A stretch of DNA of 33,696 bases from a virus. Positions within the stretch are counted from its first letter, which is position 1, and each line of letters starts with the position of its first letter. This document shows, piece after piece, positions 4,970 through 26,438 of this stretch. The translations under genes were made by a program, and so were the position numbers. The stretch spans positions 1 through 33,696 of the IMG/VR virus record IMGVR_UViG_3300042542_003017. One strand, 5' to 3'. The notes under the pieces are model-generated. The model saw only the letters and a list, made by a program, of their open reading frames with translations. It was not told the origin of the DNA and did not search any database.

Positions 4970-5374
4970 ATGAAACCAAAGAAGACCCCAAAGAGAGGCA
5001 AGGGCCGCCCGCGAAATCCTGTGACGGATCGGATTGCCAGTGAGCTTGCTGTAACGAAACGGCAGGCGCGCAATCTTGCCGCCGAGTCCGAGACCACCGG
5101 CCTGCCCGTGGAGGACATGAAGGCCGCGAGGCTCAGGAAGCTGAAGCTCGAGGGCGACCGGATCGAGTATTTGCTGGAGGTCACAAAAGGAAAGCACATT
5201 GCAAAAGAGAAGGTGGAGGAAGAAATGATCGGCCTCGGCATGGCCGTGAAGGCTCAACTCTTCTCATGGGTGGGCGCATTGCCTGGGCGACTCGAAGGAC
5301 TATCGGCGGCTCAGATGGTGCCGATCCTCGAAGATGAAATAAACCGGATTCTCAAAACGCTTTCCGACGAATGA
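4970..5374 (+). CDS. Terminase small subunit, Nu1-like
   Basis: The 134-residue protein begins with a basic KRGKGRPRNPVTDRIASELA segment followed by a short HTH-like stretch (VTKRQARNLAAE), as in Nu1-type small terminases that recognise the packaging site. The C-terminal half is helical, as expected for oligomerisation and contact with the large subunit. It lies directly before, and overlaps (ATGA), the large terminase gene. About 100 bases of apparent noncoding DNA precede it. The assignment rests on position plus the N-terminal HTH. Confidence 0.75.
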   Translation: MKPKKTPKRGKGRPRNPVTDRIASELAVTKRQARNLAAESETTGLPVEDMKAARLRKLKLEGDRIEYLLEVTKGKHIAKEKVEEEMIGLGMAVKAQLFSWVGALPGRLEGLSAAQMVPILEDEINRILKTLSDE

Positions 5375-8826: not shown

Positions 8827-8849
8827 TTTGACACGCCCGCCGAGGCGTG
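8827..8849 (+). promoter_or_regulatory. TTTGACAC element with start-codon hairpin
   Basis: TTTGACAC (8827-8834) is followed 12 bases later by the GTG start of the connector gene. CACGCC (8832-8837) pairs with GGCGTG (8844-8849), so the GTG lies in the 3' arm of a hairpin. No Shine-Dalgarno sequence is present. It is almost identical to the element at 9118. Confidence 0.6.
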
Positions 8850-9122
8850 ACCGACCTCGACAAAATCAGCGGCGTAAAATCCTACCTCCGCCGCACCAAG
8901 ACCACCGCTGAACTTCAGGCACTCGCCGACGCGGCTTTTCTCTCCGCGTCCGAGGAAGTCACGATTACATCCATCTCTGGCGACGGCACCGCATCTAGCG
9001 GACAGGTCTCGTTTCCAAAATGGCTTCTCCTCCAAGCCCTCGAAGAAATCCTCTCCGAAGGCCCGAACGGACGCCAACTTTTCAACATCGCCGACCGCTC
9101 CCGCTACGGGACCGCCGTTTGA
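8847..9122 (+). CDS. Head-tail connector, gpW-like
   Basis: The 91-residue protein (MTDLDKISGVKSYLRRTKTT...) starts at a GTG inside a hairpin. Its size, helical N-terminal half and place between terminase and portal match lambda gpW, the connector that joins head and tail. The middle (EEVTITSISGDGTASSGQVS) looks like a beta hairpin, as in gpW. The call rests on order and plan, as sequence similarity in this family is weak. Confidence 0.55.
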   Translation: MTDLDKISGVKSYLRRTKTTAELQALADAAFLSASEEVTITSISGDGTASSGQVSFPKWLLLQALEEILSEGPNGRQLFNIADRSRYGTAV

Positions 9123-9142
9123 CACGCCCGCCTCGGCGTGTC
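9118..9142 (+). promoter_or_regulatory. TTTGACAC element with stop/start hairpin before the portal gene
   Basis: TTTGACAC (9118-9125) contains the TGA stop of the connector gene. GACACGCC (9121-9128) pairs perfectly with GGCGTGTC (9135-9142) around a 6-base loop, and the portal GTG (9138-9140) lies in the 3' arm. A ribosome finishing the connector would disrupt the stem, so the hairpin could couple portal translation to connector translation. Confidence 0.65.
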
Positions 9143-10865
9143 CGCGAAAATCAAAAAATCAAGTTGGGGTGGAACCCGCCCCGGAGCAGGCCGCCCCCGC
9201 AAGCTCGACGCCAAAGCCGCCGCGTTCGAGGCCGCCCAGCCCTCTTTAAATCGCGGCCTCATATGGGTTCCGACGACCGACCCGAAGCGCGAACTCACCG
9301 CGCACAGCCGACTTGAAATCCTCAAGGTCTCGCGCTGGCTCTACAACAACGCACCGCAGGCCACCTACATTGTCGAACACCTCGCCCAGCGCGCCATCGG
9401 CACCGGCATCGTTGTTCAGCCAAAGACCAGCAACACCGAATGGAACAAAAAGGTTGATCAGTATTTCGAAGACAGAAATTGCGCCGAGGCGTGGGCATTC
9501 GACGCCGGCGCACAGGTAAATTTTTATACCGCGCAATCGCTCATCCTCCGCCAGGTCGCCATCGACGGCGATTTCTTCGCGCAATTTTTGAAAACCAAAG
9601 AAGGCGCGGCCCGCGTCCGTTTCCTCGGCGGCGAGTCCATCGGCGGTGCCGGATCCTTCGCGAGCGACTCGCACGACGGCGTCATCCTCGACCGCTACGG
9701 CGCGCCCGTAGCCTACACGCTGAACAGCGAGAACGGCCTCCGCGTCCCTGCCGAAGACATCCTCCACTTCCGCCACATCCGCCGCCAAGGCCAACCCCGT
9801 GGCGTCTCGTGGTTTCACTCCGCCGCCGCCAACCTCCGCGACATCTCCGAAATCAACGGATTCGTTAAGGGCGCGTATAAGGCCGGCGCTCAGATCGGCT
9901 ACATGGTCACGAGCACCGAAGTCGCCAAAATCGGCTTGGGCGCTGGAATGAAAACCACCAGCAACGAAGTCGGCGACCTCACCACCAGCGACCTCCCGAA
10001 CGGCATCCTCCTCCCACGCCTCAAGCCCGGCGAAAAGCTCGAAGCCTTCAAAAACGACATTCCCGGCCAGACCTATGAAGCCGTAATGCGCGCCCTTCGA
10101 TCCGATGTTGCCTTCGCCATCGGCCTCCCGCCCGAAGCCATGATGGTCAATGTCGGCCTCGCAGGCACCGAGCAACGCGCCGTTTTGGAAGTCACGCAGA
10201 ATTTCCTCGAGCGCCTGCAACAGCAGGTCATCGATCAGTTTTGCAGGCCGTTTTACAAATACTGGTTGTGGCACGAGATGCAGGCCGGTCGCCTCGAATA
10301 CCCCGGCGATGATTGGTGGCGCCACGAATGGCTCGCCCCGCGCAAGATCACGGTTGATTCCGGCCGCGACGCCCGCGCTTACAGCGAGCAACTGGACAAA
10401 GGCCACCTCTCCCCGACCCGCTACTACAACATGCTCGGCCTCCGCGCCACCGAGGAAGAGGACGATGTCATCGACACCTACCTCCGCCGCAAAGCCAAGT
10501 GCGACGCCCTCGGCCTCGATGTTTCGCAGGTCTTCCCGAACTCCCTCCGCAACGGCATCGCCGCCCAACAACCCGCCGAGCCAGATGGGGACGAGGACGC
10601 GGAAGCCGCGCCTTCCATCGTTGACCTCCAAGCCAAAGAAAAACTCGACGCCATTGGCGTTGCCGTCCGCGCTGGCGTTTTGACGCCCGAGCAATCTCTT
10701 GAGCAGTCAGTTCGCCAATCTTTGGCTCTGCCCGAAATGGGATCGGATGTCCTGTCTGAATGGCGCGACAACCCGATCCGCTCACCGATCACTCTCAGCA
10801 GCGAACTCGCGGGCGGAGACCCCGTCACTAAACCCACTCCCGAAGACAACCCAACCGAACCATGA
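9138..10865 (+). CDS. Portal protein, lambda gpB family
   Basis: The 575-residue protein forms the dodecameric DNA channel at the head vertex. It matches the lambda-type portal family: NNAPQATYIVEHLAQRAIG near residue 75, the QSLILRQVAIDGDFFAQFL segment, the DILHFRHIRRQGQPRGVSWF motif near residue 210, and the ISEINGFVKGAYKAGAQIGY helix. Residues 1-25 hold GGTRPGAGRPRK, an AT-hook-like basic patch that also appears in the small RHH protein upstream and is unusual for a portal. The C-terminal 100 residues are acidic and probably disordered. The GTG start lies in the hairpin described at 9118. Confidence 0.93.
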   Translation: MSAKIKKSSWGGTRPGAGRPRKLDAKAAAFEAAQPSLNRGLIWVPTTDPKRELTAHSRLEILKVSRWLYNNAPQATYIVEHLAQRAIGTGIVVQPKTSNTEWNKKVDQYFEDRNCAEAWAFDAGAQVNFYTAQSLILRQVAIDGDFFAQFLKTKEGAARVRFLGGESIGGAGSFASDSHDGVILDRYGAPVAYTLNSENGLRVPAEDILHFRHIRRQGQPRGVSWFHSAAANLRDISEINGFVKGAYKAGAQIGYMVTSTEVAKIGLGAGMKTTSNEVGDLTTSDLPNGILLPRLKPGEKLEAFKNDIPGQTYEAVMRALRSDVAFAIGLPPEAMMVNVGLAGTEQRAVLEVTQNFLERLQQQVIDQFCRPFYKYWLWHEMQAGRLEYPGDDWWRHEWLAPRKITVDSGRDARAYSEQLDKGHLSPTRYYNMLGLRATEEEDDVIDTYLRRKAKCDALGLDVSQVFPNSLRNGIAAQQPAEPDGDEDAEAAPSIVDLQAKEKLDAIGVAVRAGVLTPEQSLEQSVRQSLALPEMGSDVLSEWRDNPIRSPITLSSELAGGDPVTKPTPEDNPTEP

Positions 10866-11971
10866 CCACACCCACCCCAAAATTCTATGCACTGGAAAAA
10901 TCCGACAACGGCGAGGCAACGATCCATCTCTATGATGAGGTCGGTGCTTTCGGCTCAGGCTCTAAAGAATTCCTCGCCGACCTCGGCAAGCTCGAAGGCC
11001 AACACATCCACCTCCGGATTAACTCCCCTGGCGGAAGTGTTGTCGAAGGCACGGCAATCTACAACGCCCTCCGTCGTCACAAAGGCGGCCTGACCGTTCA
11101 CATCGACGCGCTCGCCGCTTCGATGGCCTCGGTCATCGCCATGGCCGGCGCTCCCGTCTACATCGCCGACAACGCCCTGCTCATGATCCACAATCCGTGG
11201 ACCGTCAGCATGGGAGACAGCGACCAGCTCCGCCGCGAAGCCGCTCTCCTCGACAAACTCAAAGACTCCCTCCGCAACGCTTATGTCCGCAAGACCGGCA
11301 TGGAGGCTGACCGTATCGCCCAAATGATGGACGAAGAAACCTGGCTGGACGCTGTCGAAGCCGTGGCCCTCGGATTCGCCGACGCCATCGAGGAAGGCGT
11401 CGCCGCCGCAGCCACCGCGACACCCGCCCAACTCCGCGCCCGATTTGACAAGTTCGCGCAGGGCATGACCCAGCAGCCTGAAACCCAAGAGCCCACCGCT
11501 CCCGAAGTCCTCGACACCGTCGTCAGCGAATCCGCTGATTCGTCCACTCCGTCTGATTCGTCCGATTCCACGGAGCCAGCCGCCGTTCCGTCCGATTCCG
11601 TCGAGCCAACACCCGAGCCAGAGCAACCCGCTCCCGCCGAACCACAAGCTCGCGCCACCGCCGTTGACTCCATCCTTGAGAAATTCAATGCAGCGATCGC
11701 CGAGCGCGACGCAATGCGCGCTGAACTCTCCAGCGTTCGCGTCCAATTCGACCTCGTAAAAAGCGAGCTCGCCACCAAGTGCGAAGACCTCGACCGCCTC
11801 GAGCGCAGCCTCGGTCTCTCACCCGCCCGCGTCGTTCCCGCCGTCGACCAAGTGCAAGACTCCGGATCCATTTACGACCAGTGGAAAAACTCCACCGGAG
11901 CCGACAAGACCCGGATTTTCCGCGCCAACCGCAAAGCCCTCGAAGCCCACTCGAGACTCCATGGCGTTTGA
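10862..11971 (+). CDS. ClpP-type prohead protease with scaffold-like C-terminal domain
   Basis: The 369-residue protein has an N-terminal ClpP/S49-like protease (about residues 20-185) that would process the prohead. Visible markers are INSPGGSV, the nucleophile S87 in AASMAS and H110 in MIHNPW. A low-complexity linker rich in Ser, Asp, Pro and Glu (about 200-265) leads to a coiled coil (about 268-325, from VDSILEKFNAAIAERDA), which is the plan of a fused scaffold. Lambda's protease gene C contains the scaffold Nu3 as an internal start, so a similar nested product is possible. The ATG overlaps the portal stop. Confidence 0.9.
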   Translation: MTTPTPKFYALEKSDNGEATIHLYDEVGAFGSGSKEFLADLGKLEGQHIHLRINSPGGSVVEGTAIYNALRRHKGGLTVHIDALAASMASVIAMAGAPVYIADNALLMIHNPWTVSMGDSDQLRREAALLDKLKDSLRNAYVRKTGMEADRIAQMMDEETWLDAVEAVALGFADAIEEGVAAAATATPAQLRARFDKFAQGMTQQPETQEPTAPEVLDTVVSESADSSTPSDSSDSTEPAAVPSDSVEPTPEPEQPAPAEPQARATAVDSILEKFNAAIAERDAMRAELSSVRVQFDLVKSELATKCEDLDRLERSLGLSPARVVPAVDQVQDSGSIYDQWKNSTGADKTRIFRANRKALEAHSRLHGV

Positions 11972-12024
11972 CACCCAACTAATCACCGAACCCAACCACC
12001 ACCTAATCCAAACCACCCACTAAT
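11967..12024 (+). promoter_or_regulatory. TTTGACAC element and 50-nt C/A-rich leader of the capsid gene
   Basis: TTTGACAC (11967-11974) includes the protease stop codon and is followed by 50 bases made almost entirely of A and C with a few T and a single G (in CACCGAACCC), with no Shine-Dalgarno sequence and no self-complementarity. It ends at the capsid ATG. A CGAA tetramer lies 12 bases after the octamer, as in the other two long leaders. An open leader of this kind should favour loading of ribosomes. Confidence 0.6.
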
Positions 12025-12930
12025 ATGGCCACCACCATCAGCTCCGAACTCAAACTGAATGTCGTCCTCGACAGCGCCCTCATCGCGCTCCGCGAGGCAC
12101 TTCTCCCGATCAACTCCTTCTCGACCGTGTTCAACTCGGTCCCACTGCAAGGCACCGACAAAATCAGTGTTCCGTTTTTCCCTCTCGCTACTGACGCGAC
12201 GAGCGACTTCAACGGCACTTACGCATTCGGCGACACGAACGCGATCAACTCCCGCGAGATCACGGTCAACAAGCGCAAGTATCAAGCCTTGAGCTTCACC
12301 AGCTCGGAACTCGCCCGCCAGCCTTATTTCAACCCCGAGCAACTCGGATTCTTGAAGGGCCGCAAACTCGCCGAGGACATCCTCCGCGACATCCTCTCGA
12401 TCGTCACCCTCGCCAACTACGGCGCGGCGATCCACACCGGCGCGGCCTCCGCGTTCGACAGCGAGGACATGGTCAACATCAAGACCGCGCTCGACCAAGC
12501 CAAATGGAGCAAGTCCAGCCGCGTGATGATCCTCGATAACTCCTACGAAGGCGCGCTCCTCAAGGACGCTGGCATCAAGAACGCCGCCGCAGTCGGCAGC
12601 GCCACCGCGATCCAAAACGGACGCCTGCCACAGATCGCTGGCTTCGATGTTATCGGAACCAACTTGATCCCCGGCAACAGCCAGAACCTCGTCGGCATGG
12701 TCGCACTCCCCGAGTCGATCTTGGTCGCCTTCTCGCCGATCCAGCCATCACCTGGCGTGTTGAACCACCTCACCAGCTACGAGACAGCCGTTGATCCCGA
12801 GACCGGCCTCACCATCGAATACCGCGCATGGGCTGACCCTGACACGGACACCGAAAAACAAGTCCTCGAGGTCAACTACGGCTACGCCCTCGGCCACGCC
12901 GCCGCCCTCAAGCGCATCGTCAGCGCCTAA
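12025..12930 (+). CDS. Major capsid protein (HK97-like fold inferred)
   Basis: The 301-residue protein follows the protease and has the expected size for a capsid subunit. Segments typical of phage coat proteins include the TDKISVPFFPLATDATSDFN loop near the E-loop position, REITVNKRKYQALSFTSSEL, and the AEDILRDILSIVTLANYGAA helix. The DNYGY-like end (EVNYGYALGHAAALKRIVSA) resembles P22-type and related coats. The long open leader and the strong terminator after the next gene agree with very high expression. The fold is inferred from position and plan. Confidence 0.85.
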   Translation: MATTISSELKLNVVLDSALIALREALLPINSFSTVFNSVPLQGTDKISVPFFPLATDATSDFNGTYAFGDTNAINSREITVNKRKYQALSFTSSELARQPYFNPEQLGFLKGRKLAEDILRDILSIVTLANYGAAIHTGAASAFDSEDMVNIKTALDQAKWSKSSRVMILDNSYEGALLKDAGIKNAAAVGSATAIQNGRLPQIAGFDVIGTNLIPGNSQNLVGMVALPESILVAFSPIQPSPGVLNHLTSYETAVDPETGLTIEYRAWADPDTDTEKQVLEVNYGYALGHAAALKRIVSA

Positions 12931-12935
12931 GCCTG

Positions 12936-13178
12936 ATGCGCCTCGCAATCACGCTCACCCGCACCGGCAGCACTTGGAAGGTCGAAAGCCTTCCGAGTGT
13001 CCCGCTCGGCGAGCAGCTCGCAGCCTTCAAAGTCAAGCAAGTGGCCGGCGAGTTGACCGCAGACGAGACGCTCGTCGTCTCCCTCGGCGACACGCTCAAG
13101 CGCCACATCAGCAAAGCCAAACCAGCCGCTCCCGCCGTTGAGGTGGAAGTCGAAGAGTCACCAAAGAAAAAGAAGTAA
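12936..13178 (+). CDS. Small protein after the capsid gene, possible head decoration or fibre
   Basis: The 80-residue product (MRLAITLTRTGSTWKVESLP...) has a small beta-rich front and a tail EVEVEESPKKKK of mixed charge. It lies 5 bases after the capsid stop and before the terminator, so it is co-transcribed with the capsid. Genes in this place are often head fibres or neck proteins; I do not recognise the family. Confidence 0.65.
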   Translation: MRLAITLTRTGSTWKVESLPSVPLGEQLAAFKVKQVAGELTADETLVVSLGDTLKRHISKAKPAAPAVEVEVEESPKKKK

Positions 13179-13214
13179 TTCCCGCAAAGCGCCCGCACCG
13201 CGCTCCTCGCCCGC

Positions 13215-13257
13215 AAAAGCCCTCGCCGTTCTCACTCACGGCGGGGGCTTTTCTTTT
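13215..13257 (+). terminator. Rho-independent terminator after the capsid cassette
   Basis: AAAAGCCCTCGCCG (13215-13228) pairs with CGGCGGGGGCTTTT (13239-13252), a 14-bp stem with a single G-U pair and a 10-base loop, followed by CTTTT. This is the strongest terminator seen in the window. It ends the highly expressed capsid unit; read-through must still feed the neck and tail genes downstream. Confidence 0.85.
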
Positions 13258-13279
13258 GACACGCCGCAAGGTTCGTGTC
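13255..13279 (+). promoter_or_regulatory. TTTGACAC element with start-codon hairpin
   Basis: TTTGACAC (13255-13262) overlaps the T-tract of the terminator. GACACG (13258-13263) pairs with CGTGTC (13274-13279) around 10 bases, and the GTG start of the next gene (13275-13277) is in the 3' arm. The octamer-to-start spacing is 12 bases, the same as at 8827 and 9118. Confidence 0.55.
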
Positions 13280-13595
13280 GCCCACCGCTCGCAATGCCCT
13301 CGCTCTCCGCTCCGCGCAACTGCGCCAAAGCGCCCACGGCACGCCCGTAAAATTCCGCCAGGCTGAGATCCGCGTCTGCCTCGCCCCCGTCTCCATCGGC
13401 CTCGACCTCGAGACCGGCGGCCTCCGCCAAGGCGGTGAGTTTTCGATCCGTTTCCTTGCCGCCGACCTGCAAAGCCCACCGCGCCGAGGCGAAGCCGTCA
13501 CCTTCAGCGCCAAGACTTACTTCATCAGTCAGGTCTCCGAAACAAACAGCCCCGGCGAATACCTCGCCACCATGTCGCCAGGAGGTGCCGCGTGA
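13275..13595 (+). CDS. Neck protein, probable head-closure or head-tail joining protein
   Basis: The 106-residue product begins at GTG (MSPTARNALALRSAQLRQSA...) and is beta-rich in its second half (GEAVTFSAKTYFISQVSETN), with an AGxxW-like plan seen in small head-closure proteins. Its position between capsid and tail tube and its size support a neck role. The GTG start is set by the hairpin and by the lack of an alternative ATG. The next gene overlaps its stop. Confidence 0.55.
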   Translation: MSPTARNALALRSAQLRQSAHGTPVKFRQAEIRVCLAPVSIGLDLETGGLRQGGEFSIRFLAADLQSPPRRGEAVTFSAKTYFISQVSETNSPGEYLATMSPGGAA

Positions 13596-13999
13596 ACATA
13601 CCCGTCGAGTCCTCCCTCGCCGCATGGCTCCGCAGCCAGCCAGCCTTTGACGGCATCCCCGTCCACACCGGCCAGAGCGCCGACACGATCCCGCAGGATC
13701 AGAGCGTCCTTCTCGCCGGGTGCGAATCCACCGAAGCCGTGGCCCGTGGATTCTACAAGGCGACCGCGAGCATCGTGCTGGTCACTCCCTCCGTCATCGA
13801 AGGATCCCTCGAAGCGCACGCCGCCCTCGCCGAATCCCTCCGCGCCTCCCTGCTTTCCGCCACCGATCTCGCCGACGCCTTCGCGCCCGACCTGACCCTC
13901 GCCGGCGCCGACCTCCGCTCGGTCGATGACACGCAATCCGACGGCCGGTGGGTCACCACCGCCGCGCTGACCATCGCCTTCACGACCTCCGGCATTTGA
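13592..13999 (+). CDS. Probable tail terminator / neck protein
   Basis: The 135-residue product (GTG start, MNIPVESSLAAWLRSQPAFD...) has the N-terminal helix, central strand with hydrophobic run (ATASIVLVTPS) and C-terminal strand (WVTTAALTIAFTTSG) of small tail-terminator proteins. It lies just before the tail tube gene, the usual place for a tail terminator. The assignment is positional. Its TGA stop is part of a TTTGACAC element. Confidence 0.55.
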   Translation: MNIPVESSLAAWLRSQPAFDGIPVHTGQSADTIPQDQSVLLAGCESTEAVARGFYKATASIVLVTPSVIEGSLEAHAALAESLRASLLSATDLADAFAPDLTLAGADLRSVDDTQSDGRWVTTAALTIAFTTSGI

Positions 14000-14053
14000 C
14001 ACGCGCCTCCCTTCCGAAACCCGCAACCAAACCAACCCAACTCCACCACCACC
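13995..14053 (+). promoter_or_regulatory. TTTGACAC element and 51-nt C/A-rich leader of the tail tube gene
   Basis: TTTGACAC (13995-14002) holds the stop of the previous gene. The following 51 bases are C/A-rich, unstructured and SD-less, ending CCACCACCACC before ATGGCC. As in the capsid leader, CGAA follows the octamer by 12 bases. Confidence 0.6.
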
Positions 14054-14422
14054 ATGGCCGCAACTCTCTATCGCTCATCCGCAGTATCCACAGCCGAATA
14101 TGGCACGCCAACCGTGTCAGGCATCATATGCACCAGCTTCAGTGTCAACGAAACCGCATCGCTCTCAGAGGTCAAGGATGATCAGGGAGGGGTGGTTGCG
14201 GTGGCCATGTCGGAAGTGATCAAAGAAATTTCGATCGAGGGCATGCGCACCGGCTCATTCACCGCAACCGTCGGCAGCGCGCTCAGCGTCACGATGCCCG
14301 CCTCCGTGGATCTCGGAGCGACGACCATCGTCACCGGCCTCACCAGCAACTTCGCCGCCGAGCAGTTCGAGACCGTTTCTCTGACCGCCCGCTCCTACGA
14401 GACCGCGATGACCGCTTCCTAA
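14054..14422 (+). CDS. Major tail tube protein
   Basis: The 122-residue protein (MAATLYRSSAVSTAEYGTPT...) is nearly all beta strand with Thr/Ser/Val alternation, the plan of a single-domain tail tube subunit. It lies between the neck genes and the tail chaperones and carries the same type of leader as the capsid gene, consistent with a many-copy structural protein. A strong hairpin follows it. There is no sheath gene nearby, which argues for a siphovirus tail. Confidence 0.7.
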   Translation: MAATLYRSSAVSTAEYGTPTVSGIICTSFSVNETASLSEVKDDQGGVVAVAMSEVIKEISIEGMRTGSFTATVGSALSVTMPASVDLGATTIVTGLTSNFAAEQFETVSLTARSYETAMTAS

Positions 14423-14441
14423 GCCCGCACCCGCACCCAGC

Positions 14442-14471
14442 GCCCGGCGCGTGTGATTCACCGCGCCGGGC
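14442..14471 (+). terminator. Strong hairpin after the tail tube gene
   Basis: GCCCGGCGCG (14442-14451) pairs perfectly with CGCGCCGGGC (14462-14471), and the loop itself contains GTG-ATT-CAC. No T-tract follows, so it may stabilise or process the mRNA or lower expression of the downstream tail genes rather than end transcription fully. Confidence 0.6.
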
Positions 14472-14486
14472 TCCCTACGAAAAATC

Positions 14487-14888
14487 ATGACAAAACCTCT
14501 CGCTGTTTTCAGCACCCGCGACCTCAAGCTCGCCACCATCCTCCTCACGCTCGGCTTCGAACCCGAAAACCCCGCCGCCCCCGCCACGCGCATCCGCCGC
14601 GATTCCGGCGACGAGACGACCGTTTTTCATTTCCTCGCCAACCATCCCACCAGCGGACAGCAGGCCAATCAGGTCATGGAGTGGTTCCGCGATGCCGACA
14701 TTTTCTTGGAGAAAAACCCCGAGCACCCGGTCGCCTACCTCATCGCCGCCCTCCGCAACCGCGACGCCCTCGTTTCGGTCGTCAAAGCCACCCCCCGCCA
14801 ACTCGTTTTCCAGCGCAACGGCAAGATCGTGAGCATCTCCGAGAACGCCACCGAAGCCGACAAGAAGCGGTTCGCCAAATTTCTATGA
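14487..14888 (+). CDS. Tail-region hypothetical protein, DUF5659-like N-terminus
   Basis: The 133-residue product begins MTKPLAVFSTRDLKLATILL. The sequence FSTRDLxLA-hydrophobic-LGF is typical of a small family I associate with DUF5659, proposed from memory. The rest mentions no known motif. It is coupled by ATGA to the tail chaperone gene. Confidence 0.6.
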   Translation: MTKPLAVFSTRDLKLATILLTLGFEPENPAAPATRIRRDSGDETTVFHFLANHPTSGQQANQVMEWFRDADIFLEKNPEHPVAYLIAALRNRDALVSVVKATPRQLVFQRNGKIVSISENATEADKKRFAKFL

Positions 14889-15301
14889 AAAAACAAAACG
14901 ACAAATCCACCACCAACGAAACCCTCGAAACCGACGACGAAGTCCTCCGCGAGCAGGCCATGCGCGACGGCACCAAGCGCGTCGGCAAGTTCAAGCTCCG
15001 CCCATGCGTCCCCGGCACGATCTCCATCATCCGATCGAACCTCCTCGAGAAGCGCGATGAGTTCTGGTTCGTCGCCGCCTTCGCATTCGTCCACACCGCG
15101 CCGATCGAGGACATACTCGCCGTGGACAGCGACCCCGAGGAATTCAACCGCGCCGTCCGCCGCTGGCAGCTCGAGAACATCGCCGACCTAGACGACCAAA
15201 ACGAACTCTCCAAGCTCGTCTCCGCCGCCTGGGATCGCGTGAACGCCGCCGAGACCAAGGCCAAGAACCCCTCCACCGGAAGCCCCACCTCGGGGGAGTA
15301 G
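14885..15301 (+). CDS. Tail assembly chaperone (lambda G analogue)
   Basis: The 138-residue product (MKKQNDKSTTNETLETDDEV...) is acidic and helical, lies between tail tube and tape measure, and ends in a flexible STGSPTSGE tail. It should coat the tape measure protein during tail assembly. A GGGGG run directly before its TAG stop and an open -1 frame beyond it suggest that part of the ribosomes make a longer product (see the next entry). The ATG overlaps the previous stop. Confidence 0.75.
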   Translation: MKKQNDKSTTNETLETDDEVLREQAMRDGTKRVGKFKLRPCVPGTISIIRSNLLEKRDEFWFVAAFAFVHTAPIEDILAVDSDPEEFNRAVRRWQLENIADLDDQNELSKLVSAAWDRVNAAETKAKNPSTGSPTSGE

Positions 15302-15522
15302 CATCCCCCAACTGGCTTGCATCCTATGTCTACCGCCTCGCAAGCATCACCGGTTGGGGGTTTCACGAGTGCATGTGGCAAATCCCCTTTGCTGCCGGGC
15401 TCCAAATACTGGACGCCGATTCATTCCAGCATGGCGTTCCTCGCCTATATCTACGCCGCAATCCGAACGCGGATTTTGACTCCCTCGCGGCAATAGAAAG
15501 CGCCTTCGAGAAAATCAAATGA
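15295..15522 (+). CDS. -1 frameshift extension of the tail assembly chaperone (lambda T analogue)
   Basis: The -1 frame past the chaperone stop is open for 75 codons and reads like real protein: ASPNWLASYVYRLASITGWG followed by FHECMWQIPFAAGLQILDA, with the aromatic and Pro pattern of tail chaperone T domains. It has no start codon of its own near the junction and ends in a TGA overlapping the next ATG. A slip on GGG at 15293-15295 would fuse it to the upstream product and give about 212 residues. This is the classic arrangement of lambda G/GT. The exact slippery site is inferred, since the G run is not a perfect X-XXY-YYZ heptamer. Confidence 0.75.
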   Translation, partial: GVASPNWLASYVYRLASITGWGFHECMWQIPFAAGLQILDADSFQHGVPRLYLRRNPNADFDSLAAIESAFEKIK

Positions 15523-16373
15523 GCAACGCCACCATACAAATCGAATCGACCGGCCTCGAGGAGATGTTTCGCTTTTATGGCGCGGTGAAGCAAAAGACTT
15601 TGCCGGATACGCTTCGCATCCACGCTCGTCTGCTCTGTGTCGAACTCGCTCGCCGCACGCAGCCATTTGGCGACAAATCCGGCGGCAAAAAGATCGGCGA
15701 GAAAGCCATTGCAAAAGACATCTATGGCGGTCGTCGAAGCAGCACTAAAGGCAAAGGCCGCGCCGGTCTTTTTGCTCATGTCACGCCTCTTCAACTTGTT
15801 TACATGGACACTGTGAGCGATACTGCGGATATCTTTGTCCATGCCACAAAAGACGGCAAAGTCTATGGCGTTGATCGGGCGCACTTCGTTCCAGATGCGA
15901 CGCCTTCTTGGATTAGAGGCATTCATAAAAACCATTTTGTGAATGGTCGAATGAGTGCCGCCGGGGGTGACACTCACAATATTGGCCGCTGGAAATTCAT
16001 AAATAAATACTTCGTGCCAAAGTCAGCTTTGGAAGAATTTGTCGCAGCACAATACGCCAAGGTCGGCATTGCAAAATCCGGTTGGGCATGGTGCGCGAAG
16101 CAGTTGAAAAATCCAGTGAAAGGCAGTGCCACGCGAGGGATTCCCAAATGGGTCACGCGGCACCTTGGCGATTACGGACTCGGGCGTGTCGAAGACAATG
16201 CGGATGATCAGGTAAATCCCAGAATCACGCTCACAAATACCACCAAATACGCCGACAAGGTTTGCCGTGAGTCCGAGCGCGATGTCGCCGTGGTGATCGT
16301 CGTTCAAAAGATGGTCAAACAACTCGCCAATATTCTGCGCTACGAGCGCAAACAACTCCAGAAAGCCGCCTGA
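15519..16373 (+). CDS. Tail-region protein of unknown function
   Basis: The 284-residue product (MSNATIQIESTGLEEMFRFY...) lies between the chaperones and the tape measure. An early HARLLCVELARRTQPFGDKS segment recalls HK97 gp10-type minor proteins, but the length is about double. It is basic and has scattered aromatic residues. Base use is clearly more AT-rich than its neighbours, with A- and T-ending codons, which suggests separate acquisition. The start overlaps the frameshift product's stop. Confidence 0.7.
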   Translation: MSNATIQIESTGLEEMFRFYGAVKQKTLPDTLRIHARLLCVELARRTQPFGDKSGGKKIGEKAIAKDIYGGRRSSTKGKGRAGLFAHVTPLQLVYMDTVSDTADIFVHATKDGKVYGVDRAHFVPDATPSWIRGIHKNHFVNGRMSAAGGDTHNIGRWKFINKYFVPKSALEEFVAAQYAKVGIAKSGWAWCAKQLKNPVKGSATRGIPKWVTRHLGDYGLGRVEDNADDQVNPRITLTNTTKYADKVCRESERDVAVVIVVQKMVKQLANILRYERKQLQKAA

Positions 16374-16376
16374 CCT

Positions 16377-18719
16377 ATGGCCGACGCAACCGTCACATTC
16401 GCAGCCAAAGACCTGAACCTCGGGTCCACTATCGACAAGCTCAAAAAGGAACTCGGTGCCACGCAGGCTGCATCTAAAAATGCGGCAAAGGAATTTCAAA
16501 TGTCCTTTGCCAAAATGGCCGGAGCCGTCGCCGTAGGCACCGCCGCTTTTGAGGCATTCAAGGCCGCTGGCACGCTAGGCCTCTCCGCTGTCACCTCCGC
16601 GCTCTCAGGCATCGGCTCCGCATTTACAAAATCCATCGATGCCGCCGCGCAGATGGAAACCCTCGAGACAGCCTTTATCCCGCTCCTCGGGTCCGCCGAT
16701 GCCGCCCAGAAGCGCATCGAGGAACTCGCTAAATTCGCTGCCTCCACACCCTTTGAGCTTCCCGAAATCGCCAAAGCCTCCCGCACTCTCGAGACTCTCA
16801 CACGCGGCGCGCTCGCCACTGGCGACGGACTGCGGCTCGTCGGCGACATTGCCGCCGGGACGAACCAGCCTTTTGAAGAAGTCGCCACCACGATCGGTCG
16901 CCTTTACGATGGTCTGCAATCCGGCCGCCCAGTCGGCGAGGCCATGCAGCGACTTCAAGAACTCGGAGCCGTCTCTGGCGAGACGCGCACACAGATCGAA
17001 GAACTTTCCAAAGCAGGCAAAAACACGGAAGCCTGGCTCGTCGCCGAGGAAGCGCTGAACCGATTCAACGGCTCCATGCAACTTCAATCCGGCACATGGA
17101 CCGGCCTACTCTCTACGCTCAGCGACAACATCACCAATGCCTACGCGAAATTCGGCGAGCCAATCATCGACAAGCTCAAGCCCTACCTCCAAGGCATCAT
17201 CGCCTCCGTCGAATTCCTTACCGAAAAAGCCGCCGACCTCGGAAAATCTTTTGCCGAAAACTTCATCGCCAGCGAGAAGTCGGTAAACTCCTTCCAGACC
17301 GCGCTGAATGCTATCAGCACCGGGCAACTCGGCGCAGGGTTTTCGCTCTTTTGGGAAAGCTTAAAGCTGCAAACAATGCAGACTGGAAATTTCATTATCA
17401 ATGCTTTTACAGCGGCATTTCAAACGGTTTCGGAAATTATTTCTAATATATTTCGATCAGACGGCCCCACTTTTATGCTGATCAAGTCGGCTTTTGATTT
17501 TGTCGCTGGATATGTAAAAGAAAAAGTCGCTGGGTCTCTGGCGGACACTTTTTCAAGCATGGGGCCAGCCTTTGCAAATATAGCGAAAGGCTTGAAACAA
17601 AATGCAGAAGCAGGAGCCCTATCCGCCGAAGCCGCTCTGTATCGCATCCCAGTGGCCGCAGAGCTTGCCGCTGAAGATATTGGAACAAATCTCGCAGAAA
17701 GTGTTGGCAAATTTAAGCAAAACCTAGCTGAAGCAAACACCGAGTTTTTTAACACTAGTGAGCAAGCTAAAAAAGTTTCAGAACTTGAAGACGGCATCGC
17801 CGCCAAGATCAAAGAAGGAACCCAAAACCGCGCCGAGGCCAATGAGGAGATAAAGCTCACCGGCACATTTGCAGAAAAGATGGCGACCCTCGAGGCGGCC
17901 TACAAAGACGCTGTTGATTCTGGGAATACCTCGATAGCCGACCGCATTCTCAAAATGCGCGACACAATTAGCGCCACCGAAGAAGGAAGAAAATTAGCCG
18001 AGAAAGAAGCTGAAAAAAAAGAAGAGGCGCGAAGAAAAGAAGAGGAATCGAAGGAATTAAAACGGGAATCCCTCGCCCTCGACCTCAAGATCGCCGAAGC
18101 CCTCGCCGGAGGCAACGAAGAGCAAGCCAAGGCGCTCCAATACCAGAAAGATTTCAACGGCTACCTCAAGCAAGCCCAAGACGCCGGCATGGGCGATGCC
18201 GCCGAGAGCTTCGCCACCGCCATGGCCAGAGCCGCAGGCAGCGCCAAGAACATCAAAGAAGAACTCTCCGAATCCGCCAAGCTCTTCAAATCCATAGAAG
18301 AAGCCCGCGCCAAAGACGCCGTAGACCGTGGCGGCCGCGACACCAAGCGATTCCAGGATGCACTTGGCAAAGGCAACTTCTCCGCCGCCGAGCGTGCTGC
18401 TGGCCGCATCGCCCGCCGCGAAGAGCGTCAAGGCCGCCAAGCCGAAGAAAAGCAAGCAGCCGCAGAGGAGGCCGCCAAGCCGATCAGTCAGCGCATGGCC
18501 GAAGGCAAGCAATCCTTGCGCGACCGATTCGCCAAAAAATCCGAAGATACAAAAACAGCAGTCGCTTCCGTGGACAAACCCGGTCAATCCGGCAAGACCG
18601 ACAAAGACGCCAAAGGAGGCGACAAAGCCAAGTCCTCCCTCGACTCCATGGTTGAAACGATCAAAACGCTCCTCGAAAAAATCGAACCGCGCCTCCCCGT
18701 CGCCGCGCTCACCGCCTAG
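16377..18719 (+). CDS. Tape measure protein
   Basis: The 780-residue protein sets tail length. Residues about 50-270 match the tape measure domain, with hydrophobic Ala/Gly-rich helices, MxTLETAFIPLLGSADAAQ, and the STPFELPEIAKASRTLETL signature. The middle contains hydrophobic stretches that could insert into the host membrane, and residues about 540-780 form long charged coiled coils (AEKKEEARRKEEESKELKRE). At about 0.15 nm per residue the tail would be near 117 nm. A patch around 17340-17770 is more AT-rich than the rest and may be a recombined segment. Confidence 0.92.
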   Translation: MADATVTFAAKDLNLGSTIDKLKKELGATQAASKNAAKEFQMSFAKMAGAVAVGTAAFEAFKAAGTLGLSAVTSALSGIGSAFTKSIDAAAQMETLETAFIPLLGSADAAQKRIEELAKFAASTPFELPEIAKASRTLETLTRGALATGDGLRLVGDIAAGTNQPFEEVATTIGRLYDGLQSGRPVGEAMQRLQELGAVSGETRTQIEELSKAGKNTEAWLVAEEALNRFNGSMQLQSGTWTGLLSTLSDNITNAYAKFGEPIIDKLKPYLQGIIASVEFLTEKAADLGKSFAENFIASEKSVNSFQTALNAISTGQLGAGFSLFWESLKLQTMQTGNFIINAFTAAFQTVSEIISNIFRSDGPTFMLIKSAFDFVAGYVKEKVAGSLADTFSSMGPAFANIAKGLKQNAEAGALSAEAALYRIPVAAELAAEDIGTNLAESVGKFKQNLAEANTEFFNTSEQAKKVSELEDGIAAKIKEGTQNRAEANEEIKLTGTFAEKMATLEAAYKDAVDSGNTSIADRILKMRDTISATEEGRKLAEKEAEKKEEARRKEEESKELKRESLALDLKIAEALAGGNEEQAKALQYQKDFNGYLKQAQDAGMGDAAESFATAMARAAGSAKNIKEELSESAKLFKSIEEARAKDAVDRGGRDTKRFQDALGKGNFSAAERAAGRIARREERQGRQAEEKQAAAEEAAKPISQRMAEGKQSLRDRFAKKSEDTKTAVASVDKPGQSGKTDKDAKGGDKAKSSLDSMVETIKTLLEKIEPRLPVAALTA

Positions 18720-18721
18720 CC

Positions 18722-19432
18722 ATGAGTTACACCATCTATAAATCCACCTCCGGCCTCATCGCCCAGCCCGGCCGCGCCGTGAATACCTTCCCCTCCGGTC
18801 TAGTGCGCGTAGACCAGAGCTTCCTCGGATTAACCGCCAACGCAGCGACCCACCGCGCCATCCTCGCCGTCGGCAACGACATGCCCGACGGCGACACATC
18901 GCCTTGCATTGACGGTCTTAAAATCTTCCCCGAGGTGCAAGAGCGCCGCCGCGAGGATGGCTTCACGGAATACCTTGTGAGTGCTTATGGGCGAACGAAC
19001 TCGACCGGCAAACTTTCAAAATCGTTGGATGTTTCGACCGTGCAGGTGCCGACCTACCTCAACATCACCAATTTGCCAGCAGGCACGAACAACTCGACGA
19101 CCCCAGTGCAAATGACGGTAATCGTTACCACGACGGCTGTGACGCGAAGCGCCGTCGTGCCCGCCTCGGCTTCAAATAGCGCGATTCCGCTACCATCTGG
19201 AGACGCCTCTTTTACGATCATCTCTACGACTTTCGACGCGATCAAAGCCTCGCTCAAGGGGCTTTACCCAAACGGACAGTTCACGCTGGGAAGCCTCACG
19301 GGAACAATCTCTGTTACGGCCGAGCTTAAAGCGATAACCCGGTCTGGATTTGGCTCGTTTGATGAGACCTCGGCGACATTAGTCGGAACTCCGAAGGTCA
19401 TCAACTTTGCGACTATCACCGGCACCATATGA
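18722..19432 (+). CDS. Tail-tip protein of unknown function
   Basis: The 236-residue product (MSYTIYKSTSGLIAQPGRAV...) follows the tape measure directly and is rich in Thr, Ser and Val strands, as in distal tail or baseplate proteins. A segment near residue 65-85 (PEVQERRREDGFTEYLVSAY) resembles a loop in tube-like proteins. I do not recognise the family. Its stop overlaps the next ATG. Confidence 0.65.
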   Translation: MSYTIYKSTSGLIAQPGRAVNTFPSGLVRVDQSFLGLTANAATHRAILAVGNDMPDGDTSPCIDGLKIFPEVQERRREDGFTEYLVSAYGRTNSTGKLSKSLDVSTVQVPTYLNITNLPAGTNNSTTPVQMTVIVTTTAVTRSAVVPASASNSAIPLPSGDASFTIISTTFDAIKASLKGLYPNGQFTLGSLTGTISVTAELKAITRSGFGSFDETSATLVGTPKVINFATITGTI

Positions 19433-19698
19433 CGCTCCCCGTCGATTTCGAGGCGCTCGCCCGCGCTGCAAAAAATGCCAGCGGCGGCGGCTATCCAGTG
19501 CAAATTTCCGCCGCAGACCTCATGCGGAATTTCAATTTTGCCGCACTGGATGCCGACCCCTCGCTCATCGAGACCACCACCGGCGCAGGAGGCCATACAG
19601 CTCGCCGCTTGGCGATACCTGCACCGCCAGGCGGCGGCACCCATGTCCTCGGCGCGGTGGATGGCGCGCTGGCGTGGATCGCCACAGAGGAATGCTGA
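19429..19698 (+). CDS. Small tail-tip protein of unknown function
   Basis: This 89-residue product (MTLPVDFEALARAAKNASGG...) ends LAWIATEEC with a terminal cysteine. It has Gly-rich stretches and no clear motif. It is coupled by overlap to the upstream tail gene and lies one base before the next ATG. A tail-tip role is inferred from position. Confidence 0.65.
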   Translation: MTLPVDFEALARAAKNASGGGYPVQISAADLMRNFNFAALDADPSLIETTTGAGGHTARRLAIPAPPGGGTHVLGAVDGALAWIATEEC

Positions 19699-19699
19699 C

Positions 19700-20140
19700 A
19701 TGGTTCTTGGCCGCTCGACCTCCGGTGCCATCAAAATCAAAACCGACGAAGAAGGCGGCGGCCTTCGCGCCGTGGGTTGCGCGTGTTGTGTGACGCTGGT
19801 CTGTGGATGCTCTCCCATGTCTGCCGCCGTGAAAACTGCCATCGCTTCGGCCACGCAAGTCACCGTTAACGGAAATTCACAAGCATGGAATGGATCAAAT
19901 GCGTCATCTATTCAACTGCCTCCAACATTAAGCTGGTATATTACATACAACGCCGGAATTCTCTGCTTTCTTGGCGACAACGGCGACAACACCGTCAAAC
20001 TTTTACCCGAGCCGTTGACGATGCCGGAATGCGGGGGATTACCGTTTTCATCAACTGAAACCATCACGATCCAAGGCGAAGCCTACCGCTCTTTGAATAT
20101 CTTTAGCTTCCCTCTGCCCGTGACGATTTCATTTTCCTAA
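19700..20140 (+). CDS. Cysteine-rich tail-tip protein of unknown function
   Basis: The 146-residue product has a dense cysteine cluster early on (VGCACCVTLVCGCSPM, about residues 25-40) that could bind a metal or an Fe-S cluster, and then a beta-rich body. Lambda gpL, in the same genome position, also carries an Fe-S site, so a similar tail-tip role is conceivable. I chose the ATG one base after the previous stop; longer versions would overlap the previous gene. Confidence 0.6.
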   Translation: MVLGRSTSGAIKIKTDEEGGGLRAVGCACCVTLVCGCSPMSAAVKTAIASATQVTVNGNSQAWNGSNASSIQLPPTLSWYITYNAGILCFLGDNGDNTVKLLPEPLTMPECGGLPFSSTETITIQGEAYRSLNIFSFPLPVTISFS

Positions 20141-20424
20141 TGTTCCCCTCTGCCGCCACTCTCGCCCACCACGCCGAGCTTTTAGCGCGATTCGGTCTCT
20201 CTGCTGCAAATTTCGCGGCCTCCGGATTCTTGACCACCCCACCCGAAGCCCTCGCCGCCCGCGAAGCCACCTGCCGCGCCTGCCCGGAGTGGGACGACGC
20301 CGCACTGAACGCCACCGGCCGCTGCCGCAAGTGCGGCTGTAGCACTTGGGCGAAATTGCGAATGGCCACCGAGCGCTGTCCGCTTGGCAAGTGGGAAACC
20401 GTCTCCGAGCCGCTCCAGAAATAG
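20140..20424 (+). CDS. Zinc-ribbon protein
   Basis: The 94-residue product has a helical N-terminal half and then ATCRACPEWDDAALNATGRC-RKCGC...RCPLGKW, with C45, C48, C62, C65, C67 and C80 available as metal ligands. The C-x2-C ... C-x2-C-x-C ... K ... CP-x-GKW plan matches small zinc-ribbon proteins found in many phages (DUF6171-like, from memory). It overlaps the previous stop (TAATG). Its place in the tail block suggests a tail role. Confidence 0.75.
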   Translation: MFPSAATLAHHAELLARFGLSAANFAASGFLTTPPEALAAREATCRACPEWDDAALNATGRCRKCGCSTWAKLRMATERCPLGKWETVSEPLQK

Positions 20425-20441
20425 CTCGGAGAGTCGCCTGA

Positions 20442-20471
20442 TTTGACACCCATGCCGCAAGCAGCGGCATG
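20442..20471 (+). promoter_or_regulatory. TTTGACAC element with ATG-containing hairpin before the fibre gene
   Basis: TTTGACAC (20442-20449) is followed by CATGCCGC (20451-20458), AAGCA, and GCGGCATG (20464-20471), a perfect 8-bp stem. The fibre gene's ATG (20469-20471) is the last codon of the 3' arm. This repeats the start-codon hairpin design seen at 8827, 9118 and 13255 with different stem sequence. Confidence 0.65.
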
Positions 20472-22100
20472 AAACTCTTCCTCGACTCCAAAGCCCGGCG
20501 ATTCATCAAATCGGCCGCGAGCAATGTCGCATTGCAGACGCTCGTCCTCAAACGCCGCGACCAAGTCCCCATCGAGGTCGTGTTTGTCGAGAACGGCGTG
20601 GCCGTCTCGCCCGTCACAGGCACCCAGACCACCGTCGCCCTCAAGACCTCTTTTTCCGACGCCAATTTTCTAGCTCTGGCGGCCCCCGGTCAAACAATTC
20701 TCGATCTGAATACATTGCCGGTCGAGGGCGCATTCTCCTCCGATCCTGCCAGCATCGCCGCCTTCCTCGAGATCCGCTGGACCGCACCGAGCCAGGCATT
20801 GCGCACCGCCACGCTCCAAGTCGAAGTTCAAAACTCCGTCATCCTCGGAGACGAGCAGACCCCCGCCGCCCTCCCAGACGGCAAAGCCACCCAAGCCGAA
20901 GCCGAAGCCGGAACGGACAACGCAAAATGGATGACGCCGCTCCGAACGGCGCAGGCCATCGCCGAACTCGCCCCACCGCCCACCTGGGAGAGCGTCACCG
21001 GAAAGCCAACCGAGTTCCCGCCATCGACTCACACGCACACCGCCAGCCAGATCACCGATTTCGCCAGCGCCGTCGTCGCCGTCTCCCCGCCCGTTGATTG
21101 GTCATCCCTGACCGGCAAGCCAACGACCTTCGCACCTTCCGCCCACACGCACCTCAAGAGCGAGATCACCGGCCTCGATGCCGACCTCGCCGCCCTTGCC
21201 ACCGAAGACACCGCCCTCGGCCAGAGGATCGACTACCTCGCCGCGAATCTGGACCCTGCCGCGCTGGATTCGATTGCCGAAGCAGCCGCCGCGATCGGCA
21301 CCCTCCAGTCCGAAATCGACGGCAAAGCCACCGCCGCCCAAGGCGCTCTCGCCGACACCGCCCTCCAGCCCGAGCCCGTCGATTACCAAGGCGCCTACAA
21401 CAACGGCGCGGACTATTTCCCCGGCCAAGTCGTCAGCTACAACGGCGAACTCTACATCCGCATCGGCGAACCGAATCCCGGCTACCCACCGCCTGGCAGT
21501 TACTGGGCTGTCTTCGATCCATCGGCCTCGCCCGCATTCAAGCTCTGGGTCGAGCTTTCCAAGGCCGACACGATCCACACCCACGCCGCAACCGAGATCA
21601 CCGGCCTTTCGTCCTACATCATCGCTGCCGCCCCCGGCCTGCAAATCAACACAACGGTCCGCATCGGCGACGGCATCTCGACCACCTTCCCAATCGACGG
21701 CCTCGTCAGCTCTGACCCCGAGCATGTCCTCGTCGCCCTCAACGGCGTCGCGCAAACCCCCACCACCGACTACCTCGTTTCGGAAGCCACCGGCACGATC
21801 ACCTTCGACTCCGCGCCCGCCGCCGGAATGCAAATCTCCTGCACCGCCCTCGGCCTCCGCACCGTCCAGCCCCCGATCGACCCGACCCTCTACCTCTACG
21901 CCTTCGACCAATCCAGCGACGGCCTCACCACCTACAGCGGCCGACTCCTAAACGCCGACCGCCCCGCCGCGCCAGCCCTGCCCGAGACCGCCACCACCTG
22001 GACCATCCGCCGCAGCACCCTCAACGCCGCAGGCCAAATCCTCGCCACCGCCTCAGCCGTCGGCTCGTGGGCTAACCGGGAGACTCTCGTCTACGCATGA
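20469..22100 (+). CDS. Tail fibre with GKPT...HTH repeats
   Basis: The 543-residue product is a probable receptor-binding fibre. Residues about 175-240 hold two copies of W-x-S-[VL]-TGKPT-x-F-x-PS-x-HTH, and a shorter HTHAATEITG element follows near 375; such His-rich repeats bind metal inside trimeric fibre shafts. The last 65 residues (LYLYAFDQSSDGLTTYSGRL ... SWANRETLVYA) are repeated, with changes, in the protein encoded at 23359. The N-terminal 150 residues are beta-rich and may attach to the tail. Its ATG lies in a hairpin. Confidence 0.8.
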   Translation: MKLFLDSKARRFIKSAASNVALQTLVLKRRDQVPIEVVFVENGVAVSPVTGTQTTVALKTSFSDANFLALAAPGQTILDLNTLPVEGAFSSDPASIAAFLEIRWTAPSQALRTATLQVEVQNSVILGDEQTPAALPDGKATQAEAEAGTDNAKWMTPLRTAQAIAELAPPPTWESVTGKPTEFPPSTHTHTASQITDFASAVVAVSPPVDWSSLTGKPTTFAPSAHTHLKSEITGLDADLAALATEDTALGQRIDYLAANLDPAALDSIAEAAAAIGTLQSEIDGKATAAQGALADTALQPEPVDYQGAYNNGADYFPGQVVSYNGELYIRIGEPNPGYPPPGSYWAVFDPSASPAFKLWVELSKADTIHTHAATEITGLSSYIIAAAPGLQINTTVRIGDGISTTFPIDGLVSSDPEHVLVALNGVAQTPTTDYLVSEATGTITFDSAPAAGMQISCTALGLRTVQPPIDPTLYLYAFDQSSDGLTTYSGRLLNADRPAAPALPETATTWTIRRSTLNAAGQILATASAVGSWANRETLVYA

Positions 22101-22324
22101 CAACGATCACCGAATCCAACATCACGCAGACGCTCGATCTCTCCTCGTTCGACCTCACCCTGCCAGGCATCGTCGTCGAGTATCCCACCCGCTCCAATTT
22201 CCCGAGCGTCGGAAAATCCGACCGCCTCTACATGGCCCTCGACGAAGGCATGCCCTACCGATGGAGCCCCACCGCATTGGCCTACGCCCTCATGATTCCC
22301 ATCATCGATGCGGGTAATTTTTGA
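22097..22324 (+). CDS. Small tail-region protein of unknown function
   Basis: The 75-residue product (MTTITESNITQTLDLSSFDL...) overlaps the fibre stop by ATGA and ends with a TGA lying inside a TTTGACAC element. It may be a fibre chaperone or adaptor by position. No family is recognised. Confidence 0.65.
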   Translation: MTTITESNITQTLDLSSFDLTLPGIVVEYPTRSNFPSVGKSDRLYMALDEGMPYRWSPTALAYALMIPIIDAGNF

Positions 22325-22379
22325 CACTCACCCCACCACGAACAGCCAAAACCAAAACCACCAACACACCTAATTAGTC
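22320..22379 (+). promoter_or_regulatory. TTTGACAC element and 52-nt C/A-rich leader of a fibre gene
   Basis: TTTGACAC (22320-22327) contains the stop of the previous gene; 52 bases rich in C and A follow (AGCCAAAACCAAAACCACC within it), SD-less and unstructured, to the ATG. CGAA lies 11 bases after the octamer, matching the capsid and tail tube leaders. Confidence 0.6.
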
Positions 22380-26417: not shown

Positions 26418-26438
26418 TTTGACACCACCGCCCATTCG
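26418..26438 (+). promoter_or_regulatory. TTTGACAC element before the holin gene
   Basis: TTTGACAC (26418-26425) is followed after 13 bases by the ATG of the holin-like gene. The spacing matches the GTG genes at 8847, 9138 and 13275, but no start-codon hairpin is evident here. Confidence 0.5.

Follow-up and report, generated by a model that had tools for sequence, protein, structure and literature searches.

The stretch of DNA analysed here, referred to throughout as the window, is a 33.7-kb tailed-phage record (IMGVR_UViG_3300042542_003017; 33,696 nt) that encodes a D5-type primase/helicase, a gpA-type large terminase, a portal protein, a head protease and a major head protein, as well as a tape measure protein, tail proteins, an amidase and a PIF1-like helicase. 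Rfam at gathering scores gave no match in the window. An octamer occurs in it eight times, always on the plus strand, where 0.62 copies would be expected. A sequence-only reading had noticed that at four octamer junctions (8827-8849, 9118-9142, 13255-13279 and 20442-20471) an inverted repeat places the start codon of the next gene in its 3' arm, and had proposed selection on structure and a device coupling the translation of adjacent genes. All four repeats are present where that reading had located them. The conserved core of the octamer is the heptamer TTTGACA, which we consider likely, from the pattern of sequence around it, to be the core of a late promoter with its start site 20 or 21 nt from the heptamer. 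The features concerned are listed below, with distances counted from the first T of the heptamer.

8827-8834, plus strand: heptamer followed by C, candidate late promoter element; GTG 8847 at +20 is the predicted transcription start
8832-8837/8844-8849, plus strand: inverted repeat CACGCC/GGCGTG with GTG 8847; z -1.06
9118-9125, plus strand: heptamer followed by C, within which the upstream 8847 gene ends (TGA 9120-9122); GTG 9138 of the portal gene at +20
9121-9128/9135-9142, plus strand: inverted repeat GACACGCC/GGCGTGTC with GTG 9138; z -1.23
9138-10865, plus strand: portal protein, predicted to be leaderless; phrog_21, 1.6e-47
10862-11971, plus strand: head protease gene; phrog_133, 2e-76
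11444-11451, plus strand: heptamer TTTGACAA, lying within the protease gene; internal ATG 11465, in frame, at +21
11465-11971, plus strand: putative nested scaffold protein in the same frame as the protease, its role suggested by position
11967-11974, plus strand: heptamer followed by C before the major head protein; predicted start G 11988; ATG 12025 at +58; C/A-rich leader
13218-13257, plus strand: intrinsic terminator with a 12-bp stem and a T-run running into the heptamer
13255-13262, plus strand: heptamer followed by C; GTG 13275 at +20
13258-13262/13275-13279, plus strand: inverted repeat GACAC/GTGTC with GTG 13275; z -1.63
13995-14002, plus strand: heptamer followed by C; predicted start G 14016; ATG 14054 at +59
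20442-20449, plus strand: heptamer followed by C before a tail-fibre-like gene; predicted start A 20463, within the loop of the hairpin
20451-20458/20464-20471, plus strand: 8-bp hairpin CATGCCGC/GCGGCATG ending in ATG 20469; z -3.17
20469-22100, plus strand: tail protein gene (tail-fibre-like); phrog_14, 1.1e-15
22320-22327, plus strand: heptamer followed by C; predicted start G 22340; ATG 22380 at +60
26418-26425, plus strand: heptamer followed by C; G 26438 at +20 and ATG 26439 at +21

The heptamer and its distance from start codons

The phage family to which the window belongs is freshwater, uncultured and linked to Verrucomicrobia; a Verrucomicrobia metagenome-assembled genome (MAG) from Lac Pavin carries a terminase 97% identical to that of the window. 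A scan with the portal returned the best 80 of 100 viral loci, and the family heptamer counts refer to records L001-L081 plus the window (929,780 nt), with near-identical relatives included and the host-MAG pieces L082-L111 excluded. Two open-pattern scans of viral contigs returned, among the matches listed, mostly chance ones in unrelated and often A+T-richer phages, after which their use was restricted to records of the phage family itself. In the family set the structural strand carries 467 copies of TTTGACA and the opposite strand 10, compared with 9 and 6 for the reversed word used as a control. Each of 18 phage records of 24-44 kb has 5-9 octamers, almost all of them on the same strand. 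The heptamer is found without change at every recognised junction before the 8847 gene (61/61), the portal gene (68), the major head protein gene (70/70) and the 13275 gene (47), and the eighth base, the last of the octamer, is slightly variable at these four junction types. The pattern searches for the portal and 13275 junctions had returned 92 and 49 rows respectively, of which 24 and 2 did not represent the start in question and were excluded by eye. Five heptamer sites in the window (11444, 11967, 13995, 22320 and 26418) were absent from the sequence-only reading; a start codon follows them at 21 or 58-60 nt, and they have no comparable hairpin. Across the family the heptamer stands before nearly every virion gene. 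A literature search on the octamer listed matches that were, by title, unrelated, and none was found on leaderless Verrucomicrobia transcription start sites or on phage late or leaderless promoters of this kind.

One line of evidence is the distance between the heptamer and the start codon. For 334 distinct heptamer contexts the start was taken to be whichever ATG or GTG came first, 9-79 nt downstream, in the frame with the best score, and a coding-score filter left 313 of these (two had no open reading frame, and 19, including low-score assignments at 18 nt, scored 8 or less). The distance was 20 nt, the commonest value, in 144 contexts, 21 nt in 33, 22-75 nt in 135 and 10 nt in one, and was thus at least 20 nt in 312 of the 313. 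The sole scored case below this edge (L033:9985, assigned 10 nt) has an in-frame ATG at 22 nt. A fixed transcription start would be expected to give just such a hard lower edge, with the distances left open upward. The choice of start codon also varies with distance, GTG being used in 126/144 contexts at 20 nt, 12/33 at 21 nt and 1/135 at 22 nt or more, and in one of the 20 window genes that have no heptamer. In 65 distinct long-leader contexts, where the start codon lies 46-66 nt away, index 21 is a G in 91%, with G present in 0-8% at indices 11-20 and in 0-3% at indices 22-27, and the commonest text at this point is CGAA(A)CCC, with the start at the G. Of 173 distinct contexts, 165 have a pyrimidine-purine step between indices 19 and 20 or 20 and 21, the highest value among the offsets scanned, and at the 20-nt sites the start codon begins at that same position. 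The spacing bound, the restriction of GTG and the purine step all point toward leaderless 5' ends, which are here predicted from sequence.

Further evidence comes from what lies on either side of the heptamer. A strong stem-loop followed by a T-run abuts it in 26 of the 53 contexts of the 13275-gene cluster, compared with 16 of 3000 random positions in the same strict scan; some fibre sites fall in this cluster too, as do looser terminators missed by the strict scan. In the other clusters the scan found only three more contexts, all in the 8847-gene cluster. In four records (L077, L078, L238 and L319) a heptamer follows a terminator and lies about 80 nt before a tRNA-Met gene, with a second heptamer right behind the tRNA; the arrangement in L078 is taken from positions and the other three were read directly, and in these three a C-G step lies between indices 19 and 20. 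A promoter would be expected before a tRNA gene and a translation signal would not. The four records are close relatives and represent few independent events. The tRNA-Met (CAT) lies between two heptamers at L077:5356-5520, L238:10196-10360 and L319:4880-5075 (minus strand), and L077 has a third copy of the heptamer.

The heptamer is also found inside the protease gene, 21 nt (22-30 nt in other records) before an in-frame ATG, with 45 distinct contexts in the family. Lambda C/Nu3 is a nested protease-scaffold pair, and as in lambda the in-frame internal start in the head protease gene, at 11465, would give a separate protein. The Nu3-type arrangement is present here, with the difference that the internal start carries a promoter-like heptamer. 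By analogy the 11465 product is a probable nested scaffold protein; family searches with it gave no informative match.

Inverted repeats at the start codons

The start codons within the repeats look real: no other possible start lies between GTG 9138 and the in-frame TGA before it, and this GTG opens the portal protein. The z values of the four junctions (-1.06, -1.23, -1.63 and -3.17) were each obtained from 200 dinucleotide shuffles, of which 26, 19, 12 and 0 respectively folded as well as the native sequence, so that only the fourth hairpin, at 20442, stands out. At the GTG sites the 39 distinct 12-nt spacers of the family pair at fractions near those given by independence (0.64 vs 0.64 for positions 8-19, 0.79 vs 0.73 for 9-18 and 0.64 vs 0.63 for 10-17). 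Their mean energy is -8.52 kcal/mol, with -8.26 after swapping of halves (35/200 as low) and -6.57 for shuffled spacers (0/200 as low). The C-rich and G-rich halves of the spacer are real and partner-specific compensation is not seen. The 18 contexts that start with ATG have C as the last base of the octamer in 17 and T in one, so that the pair is broken with no matching change. The sequence-only reading had proposed a search of relatives for compensatory base changes, and had named as evidence against itself relatives in which the stems are lost and the genes kept. None of the former was seen at GTG sites in the relatives compared, and loss of the stem with retention of the gene was found for the 8847 gene in L013, L049 and L057 and for the portal gene in L330, all of which keep the heptamer and the spacing as well. 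Structural selection at the GTG sites is doubtful. The repeat at most GTG starts appears to be mainly a by-product of the CAC of the octamer lying opposite a start-site GTG, together with the C-rich and G-rich flanks.

The situation at the tail-fibre junction is different, and it is here that the proposed selection on structure holds, having failed for lack of covariation at the three GTG junctions. In 16 of the 19 distinct fibre junctions the ATG is flush with a stem of 5 or more base pairs, where shuffles average 2.0 with a maximum of 6. The arms are mostly GCCGC/GCGGC, which makes this signal mostly one of conservation; both arms are changed in one junction (AGCGG/CCGCT, L112 near 3315), another (near 5261) has an alternative stem and three of the 19 have none. 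The predicted start sites at fibre junctions lie in or beside the loop. In L112 and L116 several tail-fibre-like genes per phage repeat the heptamer-spacer-ATG start, often with a hairpin, which suggests duplicated or shuffled fibre modules.

A second gene with a marked hairpin is found in relatives of the window. This endonuclease VII/HNH-like gene adjoins the terminase genes and has a GTG exactly 20 nt from a heptamer. Its protein matches endonuclease VII in PHROGs (phrog_1035, 5.6e-08) and no Pfam family above the cut-off. The predicted read-through RNA, in which the heptamer itself is paired to a downstream copy, folds with -24.5 or -26.7 kcal/mol and the RNA from the predicted start with -2.4 or -2.7. 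A near-perfect 51-nt palindrome with two facing heptamers surrounds the endonuclease-like GTG at L003:4858-5807, L063:2728, L065:3590, L066:367 and L081:5493-6451.

A candidate late promoter and its alternatives

If TTTGACA forms the core of a late promoter, RNA would begin at a purine following a pyrimidine, 20 or 21 nt from the first T. A start codon at this distance would give a leaderless mRNA, and GTG would be used there because transcription starts best with G, while a start codon farther on (22-66 nt) would give a short or C/A-rich leader, for example that of the major head protein. Since the 5' arm of the inverted repeat precedes the start site, the repeat would form only in read-through RNA, and at the fibre and endonuclease-like genes the maintained repeat would probably block the translation of such RNA. 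A fuller version is offered more tentatively, as having somewhat less than an even chance of being right in all its parts: a single invariant heptamer about 13 nt before a strict purine start, with no -10/-35 partner, would be read by a phage-encoded or phage-modified polymerase to give mostly leaderless virion mRNAs, with T4-like hairpins where premature expression is harmful.

Several observations weigh against a late promoter. No sigma factor or RNA polymerase was found among 31 early or accessory proteins in a PHROGs comparison that listed 25 of 62 families. The octamer is not enriched in the MAG that holds L081 (32 matches, nine of them in the phage contig, with 30 for the control) and is only mildly in excess in 26 genomes of the MAG's family group; with no excess outside the phage contig and a mild one in relatives, a host machinery that reads the octamer is not apparent. 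At the 20-nt sites G+C-rich sequence separates the heptamer from the start, which is odd for promoter melting, and eight of the 173 contexts have no pyrimidine-purine step. The tRNA may be an insertion that carries a duplicated junction. Start-codon pairing at the fibre sites hardly changes on truncation (0.50 to 0.58 at 10 sites), since the AUG lies just outside the stem in many relatives. Truncation also frees start codons at control genes (0.53 to 0.79), so that the rise at sites with a distance of 20-22 nt (0.29 to 0.59) is weak support.

The alternatives account for parts of this evidence. Were the heptamer to act in RNA as a standby site or recruiting element for ribosomes, bound by an RNA-binding protein of the phage, with the ribosome loading downstream and the start at least about 20 nt away, a lower bound near 20 nt would also result and C/A-rich leaders would be tolerated. 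This would leave unexplained the use of GTG only at 20-21 nt, the single G found at index 21 where leaders are long, the terminators abutting the heptamer and the tRNA, and we regard it as unlikely. A sequence-specific endonuclease that cuts a long late RNA 20 or 21 nt after the start of UUUGACA, and so produces the same 5' ends, would account equally well for the spacing, for the pyrimidine-purine step and for the tRNA. The strong terminators directly before the heptamer would then require read-through and no candidate nuclease was identified, which leaves such processing quite unlikely.

The coupling that was originally proposed, in which an octamer-hairpin independent of Shine-Dalgarno pairing is opened for the next gene by a ribosome terminating upstream, draws on the stop codon within the 5' arm at the portal junction (9118), conserved in 59/61 relatives, and on the shuffled spacers, none of 200 of which folded as well as the native ones. 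The conservation of this stop follows from the invariant heptamer, which contains TGA; coupling may nevertheless operate at this one junction. An upstream stop within reach and with no terminator in between is found at 9118 and is not found at 13255, where a 12-bp intrinsic terminator separates the genes, or at the tRNA junctions. Heptamers precede a tRNA gene and occur inside the protease gene, start codons lie up to 60 nt away without a hairpin and the GTG sites lack covariation, and coupling is thus not supported and appears very unlikely. TTGACA is the textbook sigma-70 -35 hexamer, and ordinary host sigma-70 promoters would agree with this match and with the mild octamer excess in related genomes. 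This candidate was rejected: the profiles show no TATAAT-like -10 conservation about 17 nt after TTGACA in either spacing class, and the start would fall about 36 nt after the octamer, past the start codon of the 20-nt class. Host sigma-70 promoters are therefore highly improbable.

Comparison with known systems

Reviews of T4 describe, for T4 e, soc, 49 and I-TevI and also for T4 segB and Aeh1 mobE, a hairpin in read-through RNA that hides the start region, and a late promoter so placed that the late RNA lacks the 5' part of this hairpin (PMC3014915, PMC2988022). The fibre and endonuclease-like junctions share this layout: in the predicted folds the start region is sequestered in a read-through hairpin, with AUG pairing that varies among fibre junctions. 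Whether they silence translation as in T4 is, on these modelled structures, evenly balanced. In T4 the late promoter is TATAAATA, gp55 is required and the genes have a ribosome binding site, whereas here there are TTTGACA, no sigma factor found and starts predicted to be leaderless or near-leaderless. The fibre and endonuclease-like hairpins would work like the T4 type and are not members of it, since the invariant motif is TTTGACA in place of TATAAATA and no gp55-type sigma factor was found in the 31 proteins.

Late promoters of jumbo phages are given as AACA-N6-T[A/G] in AR9 and TATG in phiKZ (PMC5312081). As here, one short motif with a purine start serves many late genes and some of the promoters are intragenic. 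Those phages encode multisubunit polymerases, whereas none was found here in the 31 proteins and the distance from motif to start in the present family is about 13 nt. The first-ranked terminase relative among annotated phages is that of the Akkermansia phage Moulinsart, which also has a Verrucomicrobia host and the order terminase-portal-protease. The identity is 25.6%, and Moulinsart has only two heptamers on the plus strand and one on the minus strand in 22,720 nt, which is no excess.

If the late-promoter reading of TTTGACA is correct, sequence would directly reveal the transcription start sites of virion genes in an uncultured, Verrucomicrobia-linked phage family, and the late genes would offer naturally occurring leaderless GTG mRNAs on which initiation could be tested. 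It would also suggest that the hiding of start codons in read-through RNA, as in T4, arose independently, including at an endonuclease-like gene, and would point to a late transcription factor.

Two minor observations concern the neighbourhood of the heptamers. In the window a near-heptamer, TTTGACTC at 15475-15482, lies 44 nt upstream of ATG 15519 with a T-A step at the expected start position, and may represent a promoter that has degenerated. Many relatives, L007, L009, L018 and L036 among them, have CTCCGTGTCCTCCGTGGTTAA-type repeats about 10-50 nt before the 8827-type junction.

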